Shown here: positions 7,374 to 22,832 of the stretch, one piece after another
Position numbering within the stretch: position 1 is the stretch's first letter
How the letters are laid out: the number at the start of each line of letters is the position of its first letter
Assembly: GCA_943354165.1 (NCBI GenBank)
Contig: CALRBH010000008.1
Span: 1 to 37,874, forward strand
DNA length: 37,874 nt
From: Candidatus Uhrbacteria bacterium RIFOXYB12_FULL_58_10
GTDB lineage: Bacteria > Patescibacteriota > Patescibacteriia > UBA9934 > GWF2-40-263
Reading direction: 5' to 3'
The notes under the pieces: generated by a model
What the model was told of the DNA's origin: nothing
The model's input: only the letters and a program-made list of their open reading frames with translations
The model's database searches: none
Program-made: the position numbers and the translations under genes

Positions 7374-8510
7374 ATGATCCGTAAACTTTCCCTTACCGCC
7401 CTTACTACCCTTACCGCCCTTACTACCCCTCTCGCCTCCTTCGCGATCGCCCCAAACGATCCGTATGCGGATACGGTCTTTTCTGTCTCAAACCAAGTAC
7501 TCGCTCCCATGAATGCGCTGAGCGCGCCCGATGGTGTGTATGCAGACTTCCTTCAGAAGGATGCAAATGTAACTTTGGACATGGGCGCAGGCGAAGAAGG
7601 AACCGGCGACCTCGTCCTCACGATGAAGCCGTTAAACTTCGGGGCAAGCTATCGAGTAGAGTTCATGGACGCCACCTTCCTTATGTTGGAATCCAAGGGA
7701 GACTTTCTTCCACTGGATTCGGATGAAGAACTGGTGACCTACGCAGGATCAACGCCGTACCGCTATGTACGCATCACGAGTCTTCGGGAAGAAAACTGGC
7801 GTCTGGACTCCATCGAGGCAAAGACGTCCGTTACAGCTCCCATCGTGGAACCAACTCCTTCCCAACCTTCCGAACTTCTCCAACCTCCCAAACCCACCTC
7901 TCCACGCGGTCTCCTCCTGAAGGTCGTGGACGACAAGAACCCAATCACGGAAACGGATTCGATCGTGTACTCGATCGGCGCGGACGGAAAACGTCACGCC
8001 ATGCCATCGTTCAGTGTATTCAGTACGTGGTATGCGGATTTCAACGATCTTTCCTACATCGACATCGACCACTTGGCCGAGTACGCGCTTGGAAAGAACG
8101 TAACGGTGCGGCCGGGGACCTCCCTCGTGAAGATCACGACGGATCCAAAGGTCTATGCCATTGAACCGGGCGGCATCCTCCGCTGGATCACTTCAGAAAC
8201 GATCGCGATCCACTTGTACGGCGCCACATGGGCAAAACGCGTGATAGACGTTCCAGATACGTTCTTCGGAAACTACACGCTAGGAGAACCCATCTTCACG
8301 GAAATTCATCCAAACGGTTCCGTAGGGGTATTACCGGGTGGCGAAGTGGTCTATATCGAAAACGCGACGGCTCACACCATCCCTGGCGAGGTGTACACCG
8401 ACATGCGTTTCAACCCGGACTTCTTTGTCCCTATCAACAATACGCAGGAGGCAATGTATGGACACGGAGCGCCCCTGACGTCTGATCCGAACCTGCGGTT
8501 TCCGTATTAG
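7374..8510 (+). CDS. Exported protein with C-terminal repeats (DPKVYAIEPGGILRWI type)
   Basis: Signal peptide MIRKLSLTALTTLTALTTPLASFAIA; Pro-rich linker; repeat-like LVKITTDPKVYAIEPGGILRWITSE / VGVLPGGEVVYIENATAHTIPG. Confidence 0.75.
   Translation: MIRKLSLTALTTLTALTTPLASFAIAPNDPYADTVFSVSNQVLAPMNALSAPDGVYADFLQKDANVTLDMGAGEEGTGDLVLTMKPLNFGASYRVEFMDATFLMLESKGDFLPLDSDEELVTYAGSTPYRYVRITSLREENWRLDSIEAKTSVTAPIVEPTPSQPSELLQPPKPTSPRGLLLKVVDDKNPITETDSIVYSIGADGKRHAMPSFSVFSTWYADFNDLSYIDIDHLAEYALGKNVTVRPGTSLVKITTDPKVYAIEPGGILRWITSETIAIHLYGATWAKRVIDVPDTFFGNYTLGEPIFTEIHPNGSVGVLPGGEVVYIENATAHTIPGEVYTDMRFNPDFFVPINNTQEAMYGHGAPLTSDPNLRFPY
7390..7428 (+). repeat. Family C word array (CCCTTACCG/CCCTTACTA) inside the signal-peptide codons
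   Basis: CCCTTACCGCCCTTACTACCCTTACCGCCCTTACTACCC, two 18-nt units of two 9-nt words. Confidence 0.9.
7857..7900 (+). repeat. Family B word array inside coding sequence (Pro-rich linker)
   Basis: TCCTTCCCAACCTTCCGAACTTCTCCAACCTCCCAAACCC; reverse complement reads GTTTGGGAG GTTGGAGAA GTTCGGAAG GTTGGGAAG. Confidence 0.75.
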
Positions 8511-8598
8511 TTAGTAGTAAGTAGATAGTAGATAGTAGTGGTATATAAGTACGATTTTTTATCCAATCTACTTACTACTAACTACTCTCTACTAACTC
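8507..8598. repeat. Iterated-word inverted repeat, family A
   Basis: TAGTTAGTAGTAAGTAGAT... facing ATCTACTTACTACTAACTA...; left arm overlaps the TAG stop of the upstream gene. Confidence 0.85.
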
Positions 8599-8663
8599 TT
8601 GTAAAAACAAGGGGGTTTTGATAGCATGCCGTCGAAGTAGATTAAAGAGATAAGCAACTTGGT

Positions 8664-8739
8664 CGGACCGTGGCGCAGTTGGTAGCGCGCCTGGTTTGGG
8701 ACCAGGAGGCCGCCGGTTCGAGCCCGGCCGGTCCGACCA
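8664..8739 (+). tRNA. tRNA-Pro (TGG)
   Basis: CGGACCG...CGGTCCG-A-CCA, anticodon loop TTTGGGA, encoded CCA. Confidence 0.96.
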
Positions 8740-8763
8740 AGTTGCGTATCATTAAAAAATCGA

Positions 8764-8935
8764 TGGCGCAGCCCCGACGCCCCATGAAATCCGTGGGGTC
8801 GGGGGTCCGACCCGATCACGGCGTCGGACTTGGTAGCGCGCCTGGTTTGGGACCAGCCCCGACGCTGATGGTCGGGGGCCCGATCCCATCAGGCGTCGGG
8901 CGAGGCCGCCGGTTCGAGCCCGGCCGGTCCGACCA
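8764..8935 (+). pseudogene. Second tRNA-Pro copy interrupted by two palindromic inserts and lacking the 5' acceptor strand
   Basis: Blocks TGGCGCAG (8764-8771), TTGGTAGCGCGCCTGGTTTGGGACCAG (8830-8856) and GAGGCCGCCGGTTCGAGCCCGGCCGGTCCGACCA (8902-8935) are identical to and collinear with tRNA-Pro 8664-8739, separated by 58-nt and 45-nt inserts. Confidence 0.85.
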
Positions 8936-8937
8936 TT

Positions 8938-8966
8938 GAAAATACCCCCGCATGGGGATATTTTTT
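8938..8966 (+). terminator. Terminator-like hairpin after the tRNA-Pro copies
   Basis: AAAATACCCCCGCATGGGGATATTTTTTT. Confidence 0.65.
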
Positions 8967-8975
8967 TAACATCAT

Positions 8976-22746: not shown

Positions 22747-22832
22747 TAGTTAGTAGGTAGTAGAAAGTAGTTAGTAAAGCTACGGACCAGCCGTAAAACC
22801 TACTAACTACTAACTACTTTCTACTAACTTTC
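22747..22832. repeat. Iterated-word inverted repeat, family A
   Basis: TAGTAGAAAGTAGTTAGTA facing TACTAACTACTTTCTACTA (19 bp). Confidence 0.85.

Follow-up and report, generated by a model that had tools for sequence, protein, structure and literature searches.

Double-hairpin elements in partial tRNA gene copies of Patescibacteria and a GIY-YIG gene that probably moves them

We report that an interrupted second copy of tRNA-Pro(TGG) in Candidatus Uhrbacteria bacterium RIFOXYB12_FULL_58_10 is likely, with a probability of about 0.65, to be the product of a family of small mobile elements that is linked to GIY-YIG genes and targets tRNA genes while one intact copy survives. The copy lies in a stretch of 37,874 nt, hereafter the window, and the element that interrupts it is called E here. 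The GIY-YIG gene probably moves E, a movement that we infer from the comparison of genomes, which are mostly metagenome assemblies.

The original prediction that a second tRNA-Pro is split into blocks of 8, 27 and 34 nt by inserts of 58 and 45 nt was borne out by direct reading and measurement (Table 1). The three blocks are identical to the parent tRNA and positions 1-7 are absent; the copy cannot be a working tRNA because its 5' acceptor strand is missing. Both inserts are preceded by CAG, start with CCCCGACGC and have GGCGTCGG at their end, followed by AC or GC, and the chance expectation of CCCCGACGC..GGCGTCGG within the window is 0.00. Copies I and II match the covariance model of E with 78.9 bits (E-value 3.1e-12) and 65.0 bits (E-value 1.4e-9), respectively, both being among the 7 copies used to build that model. 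Taken as single-stranded DNA, the entire interrupted copy folds better than its shuffles (z -3.7). The Rfam scan of the window region gave no family for the 45-58 nt inserts. A tRNA intron of the group I or archaeal type was rejected, as removal of the inserts gives no whole tRNA from a copy that lacks positions 1-7 and the inserts have no Rfam match.

Table 1. Features of the tRNA-Pro locus (positions in the window)
Feature	Position	Strand	Basis or remark
Intact tRNA-Pro(TGG), retained copy	8664..8739	+	ARAGORN; Rfam RF00005 68.7 bits
Spacer of 24 nt, intact tRNA to interrupted copy	8740..8763	+	place can hold a GIY-YIG gene in other genomes
tRNA-Pro positions 8-15 (TGGCGCAG), 8 nt, left flank of insert I	8764..8771	+	
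E copy I, 58 nt, after tRNA position 15 (D-loop)	8772..8829	+	hairpins P1 8772-8804, P2 8805-8829; fold
tRNA-Pro positions 16-42, 27 nt	8830..8856	+	
E copy II, 45 nt, after position 42 (anticodon stem/variable loop junction)	8857..8901	+	P1 8857-8877, P2 8878-8901; fold
tRNA-Pro positions 43-76, 34 nt, exact end at CCA	8902..8935	+	
Terminator-like hairpin and T-run 3' of the copy	8936..8968	+	direct reading

Two further observations concern the window. The leader of the intact tRNA-Pro (8649-8670) is complementary to its trailer (8729-8750), CCA included, with 10 consecutive pairs beyond the acceptor stem. Such complementarity of at least 7 pairs occurs in 4 of the 182 tRNAs examined, all others having at most 2, and it is no mark of the E-linked tRNAs (at least 6 pairs in 2/93 vs. 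2/89 other tRNAs). In addition, a TAG-rich repeat (AGTTAGTAGTAAGTAGATAG and variants) forms inverted pairs at positions 2381-2468, 8509-8597, and 22748-22829 of the window, against a chance expectation of 0.

The two inserts had been taken for copies of one palindromic element, and both do belong to one family, E. However, neither is a single simple palindrome: each is made of two successive hairpins, P1 and P2, the second being nearly the reverse complement of the first. The hairpins of E abut without a spacer and each has a one-base bulge, E is mostly flanked by CAR or TAG at its left end and by YTGR or CTCA at its right end, and two types of E are distinguished, CCCC-type and TCCC-type. We considered E as a CGTC REP and discarded this assignment, given that there is no unpaired CGTC tag, the CGTC of E lying inside the stem, whose foot is mostly C-G pairs. 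The GTAG REP assignment was likewise discarded, with no unpaired GTAG at the foot of the hairpins and the flanks mostly as given above.

The E family is widespread. Searching the genome and its relatives for the element, as had been proposed with the original prediction, returned 10 copies in the window genome (G000; 852 kb, 24 contigs; pattern search, then covariance model) and showed that, of 381 genomes in the class to which the window belongs, at least 49 have the family (E-value 0.001; part of each genome's candidates scored). Nine of the 10 copies lie in tRNA fragments (Val, Ile, Arg, Ala, Pro) beside the intact tRNA: three form a tandem array of 85-nt period upstream of tRNA-Val, tRNA-Ile, tRNA-Arg, and tRNA-Ala each have a single copy upstream, a further copy lies downstream of tRNA-Ala, and two are in the window; the tenth, at contig C16, is intergenic. 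This concentration is not due to chance, because the 42 tRNA genes of the genome (Rfam) cover well below 1% of it. Tandem arrays of the tRNA-fragment-plus-E unit stand beside the intact tRNA-Val of the window genome (L007, G000:C5:17408-17635, 85-nt period) and beside an intact tRNA-Ile at L113:1324-1554 (92-nt period). When named genomes were scanned for the exact pattern, 17 copies turned up in D-arm fragments, all 17 with an intact tRNA within ~320 nt downstream; as the scan required TAGCTCAR before E, the D-arm context was set by design and the neighboring intact tRNA was not. The hosts were Wolfe-, Taylor-, Colwell-, Uhr-, Vogel-, and Zambryskibacteria, Saccharibacteria, other Patescibacteria, and Omnitrophota. 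The pattern matched viral contigs 9 times, never with the full element. An assembly artefact, which had been raised as a possible refutation of the original prediction, is excluded because the element recurs in unrelated assemblies.

In many copies a single-domain GIY-YIG ORF of ~80-95 codons lies between E and the intact tRNA. Among 94 E elements from 30 E-positive genomes, at least 9 have a GIY-YIG domain (PF01541) within 100 bp (0.24 expected) and at least 16 within 600 bp (0.75 expected), both counts being lower bounds. The strongest sign that GIY-YIG and E belong together is the pairing of protein clade with E type. In a tree of 27 GIY-YIG proteins whose genes lie no more than 450 nt from an E, all 12 members of one clade (support 99/93) are next to CCCC-type E and all 8 members of another (92/94) are next to TCCC-type E, a matching that is no count of independent events in a tree of related rows. 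The left flank is mostly CAG/CAA in the former clade and TAG in the latter, with exceptions, and the agreement of insertion site with clade is looser than that of E type with clade. Matches of the proteins to PF01541 exceed the Pfam cut-off (E-values 1e-13 to 1e-16) and the active-site residues Y, Y, G, R, H, and E are invariant in 13/13 proteins; an ORF with the domain and an intact active site, as in a free-standing GIY-YIG element, is thereby present. Among solved structures, two UPF0213 proteins are the closest in sequence. The window genome has its GIY-YIG gene outside the window, on contig C15 (G000:C15:12481-12690), in the same layout at tRNA-Ala; the protein has 92 aa.

E seems to belong to a larger group of GIY-YIG elements found at tRNA genes. 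Of 43 GIY-YIG ORFs sampled in E-positive genomes, 23 lie directly next to an intact tRNA; most of these 23 are preceded by a truncated copy of that tRNA, which is followed by other palindromic sequence. Six GIY-YIG genes at other tRNAs (L139, L142, L147, L149, L156, L163) have a different palindromic sequence after the tRNA fragment, and these differing palindromes suggest that several element types may exist. Elsewhere, at three loci of G109 (C1:149177-149581, C2:5284-5686, and C2:34820-35225), each GIY-YIG gene lies between two CGTC-type REPs in inverted orientation (GATTCCCGC..GCGGGAATGA), in a REPtron-like manner. In the open-access literature, no paper was found that connects GIY-YIG to REPs, or to the tRNA genes of Patescibacteria, and an earlier description elsewhere is possible.

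The linkage could also reflect a shared preference of E and GIY-YIG for tRNA genes. E would then be a passive palindrome of the REP/REPIN type, moved by a RAYT or another transposase into D-loops that resemble a CAR/YTG target, with GIY-YIG genes as neighbors through that preference only. The inverted two-hairpin layout of E is REPIN-like, copies outside tRNAs exist, many of them with CAR/YTG flanks, and RAYT-type genes occur in 16 of the 30 E-positive genomes. Yet no Y1_Tnp (PF01797) is found in the window genome or in the E-rich genomes G019, G163, G185, and G291, none of the 94 E elements of the 30 genomes has a Y1 transposase within 600 bp, and E type tracks the GIY-YIG clade. We regard this explanation as unlikely, and a RAYT as the mobilizer was rejected, being absent from the window genome and unlinked to E elsewhere.

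Over 34 copies of E, 97.8% of the cells are paired, the covariation score is 0.418 compared with 0.139 in shuffles and 0.04-0.11 in slid controls, and 100 cells have a change on both sides vs. 24 in shuffles. Covariation of this strength would be in agreement with E-tRNA fragments being functional RNA under selection, for example a tRNA leader element or decoy, and copies just upstream of an intact tRNA (class A, below) may be co-transcribed with it. However, E is nearly self-complementary and its model matches on both strands, because P2 has the pattern of P1 in reverse complement, as expected for a DNA element. Moreover, some copies are intergenic, upstream and downstream arrangements both occur, and there is no Rfam match. 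A selected RNA is in our judgment quite improbable, and the tRNA-derived non-coding RNA that had been listed among the options for this locus found no support.

Two insertion layouts were distinguished. Class A (n = 29) has the order tRNA 5' part, E, ~8 nt of the following tRNA sequence, spacer, intact tRNA, and its insertions fall after position 15 in 23 cases, after 11 in three, after 16 in two, and after 39 in one. The copied piece starts exactly at +1 in 12/29 and 1-2 nt beyond it in 8/29; an extension of 4 or 6 nt is seen in 2/29 and internal mismatches in 7/29. Class B (n = 9) has the order intact tRNA, spacer, short 5' remnant, E, tRNA 3' part to CCA, with insertions after 15, 42, 40, or 10/11; some copies run unbroken to CCA and others have mismatches or a second insert, and the double-insert arrangement of the window recurs at a tRNA-Ala of G019 (L078). 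The copied pieces mostly end at mature tRNA ends (+1 or CCA). Both layouts have a spacer that is either short or holds a GIY-YIG gene, the gap from E to tRNA in class A being 15-61 nt in most ORF-less cases and 256-375 nt with a GIY-YIG ORF between. An intact tRNA stands beside E in all classified cases, which were chosen for having one.

These layouts bear on the options first given for the locus. A palindromic mobile element targeting tRNA sequence, as one of them had it, is well supported by independent copies that share their tRNA positions across many genomes and tRNA species. A decaying duplicate was only partly right: the copy does lack its 5' acceptor strand and gives no working tRNA, and the duplication appears to be part of the insertion event. 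An ordinary tandem tRNA duplication with palindromes inserted later by chance would fit an intact parent with a partial copy and the tandem 85-nt arrays at C5, but it is hardly credible in the face of the same insertion positions and copy ends in 29 + 9 cases across many tRNAs and genomes. A retro-copy of mature tRNA was also considered, as the copy ends match the mature tRNA ends, but cutting of folded tRNA-gene DNA would give the same ends.

The corresponding locus of another genus of the same family (L132 of G001) has a single tRNA-Pro with neither duplicate nor E. It shares with the window the order tRNA-Pro, similar small exported-protein gene, TlyA-like gene, and tRNA-Gly; the two tRNA-Pro genes differ in sequence, and the comparison is between genera, not strains.

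In the reading that we prefer, that of a mobile element family moved by its GIY-YIG gene, the nuclease would cleave tRNA genes either within the D-arm, following position 15 or 10/11, or following position 42, and repair would leave E in a partial tRNA copy beside the intact tRNA. An upstream copy would span positions 1-15, and a downstream copy would run from 16 or 43 through CCA. Insertion of E would be coupled to partial duplication of the tRNA, sparing one intact copy. The window would hold two ORF-less copies of E in one downstream tRNA-Pro duplicate that was hit twice, and these were probably moved in trans by the nuclease gene on C15. The insertion points in the D-arm and at the anticodon-stem junction, with copy ends at the base of the acceptor stem, suggest as a hypothesis that folded DNA is recognized.

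Several points count against GIY-YIG as the mobilizer. Copies of E lie away from tRNAs in relatives (9/15 in G019, 4/5 in G040, and 2/4 in G037), E is found on either side of the GIY-YIG ORF, and it calls for an explanation that a tRNA stays intact next to a nuclease that would cut it. At their length, the proteins cannot include the separate DNA-binding domain known from homing GIY-YIG enzymes.

It is tempting, though speculative, to go further and view single-domain GIY-YIG proteins with their cognate double hairpins as a mobile element class of their own, to which the tRNA gene would be a folded DNA structure. Such an element would cut on one side at branch points or loops of the cloverleaf (10/11, 15/16, 42/43) and on the other at the acceptor-stem base (+1 or after CCA), duplicating a piece of the tRNA and leaving an intact copy, and related GIY-YIG enzymes would also move CGTC REPs.

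If the preferred reading holds, it provides a concrete and testable candidate enzyme for a class of short bacterial palindromes, and a way in which a selfish element could insert into genes that are essential, and often present in a single copy, yet leave its host alive. It would also account for partial tRNA copies in Patescibacteria that are missed or mis-called by annotation tools.

Integrase elements use tRNA genes as attachment sites. E resembles them in being inserted at a tRNA gene with the intact tRNA kept; in contrast, there is no integrase in the examined spacers, the unit is below ~0.5 kb, and insertion is at the D-arm or position 42. An integrase-type tRNA-integrating element was rejected, with a window spacer of 24 nt and spacers elsewhere made of short sequence or a GIY-YIG ORF.

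The accessible text on CGTC REPs (PMC3733652) describes an unpaired CGTC tag, an 8-9 bp stem starting with A/T pairs, and a CCA-like tail, and reports them without a dedicated mobilizing enzyme. With the CGTC-tagged REPs (including Rickettsia RPE-4/-6 and Neisseria dRS3), E has in common that the palindromic units mostly come in pairs and that no mobilizing enzyme was known for them, whereas its stem and terminal tag differ and targeting of tRNA genes is not described for CGTC REPs in that text (PMC3733652). The REPIN/RAYT system (GTAG REPs; PMC3116915, PMC3733652) is similar in its short inverted hairpin pairs, many non-autonomous copies, and linked nuclease gene. E differs from it in the lack of a Y1 transposase in the window genome, in favoring tRNA genes, and in its abutting, singly bulged hairpins.

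Finally, according to the accessible text of PMC13096335, SegB, a free-standing GIY-YIG homing endonuclease of T-even phages, cleaves inside tRNA genes and brings about the tandem amplification of a tRNA-plus-nuclease unit, in which the 5' end of the tRNA and the 3' end of the nuclease share microhomology. Unlike the short single-domain proteins of bacterial chromosomes seen here, SegB is phage-borne, and that text describes no double-hairpin insert in a tRNA fragment (PMC13096335). Nevertheless, in both systems a GIY-YIG nuclease gene stands beside tRNA genes, and SegB is a measured precedent for a GIY-YIG enzyme that cuts tRNA genes and amplifies the unit (PMC13096335).
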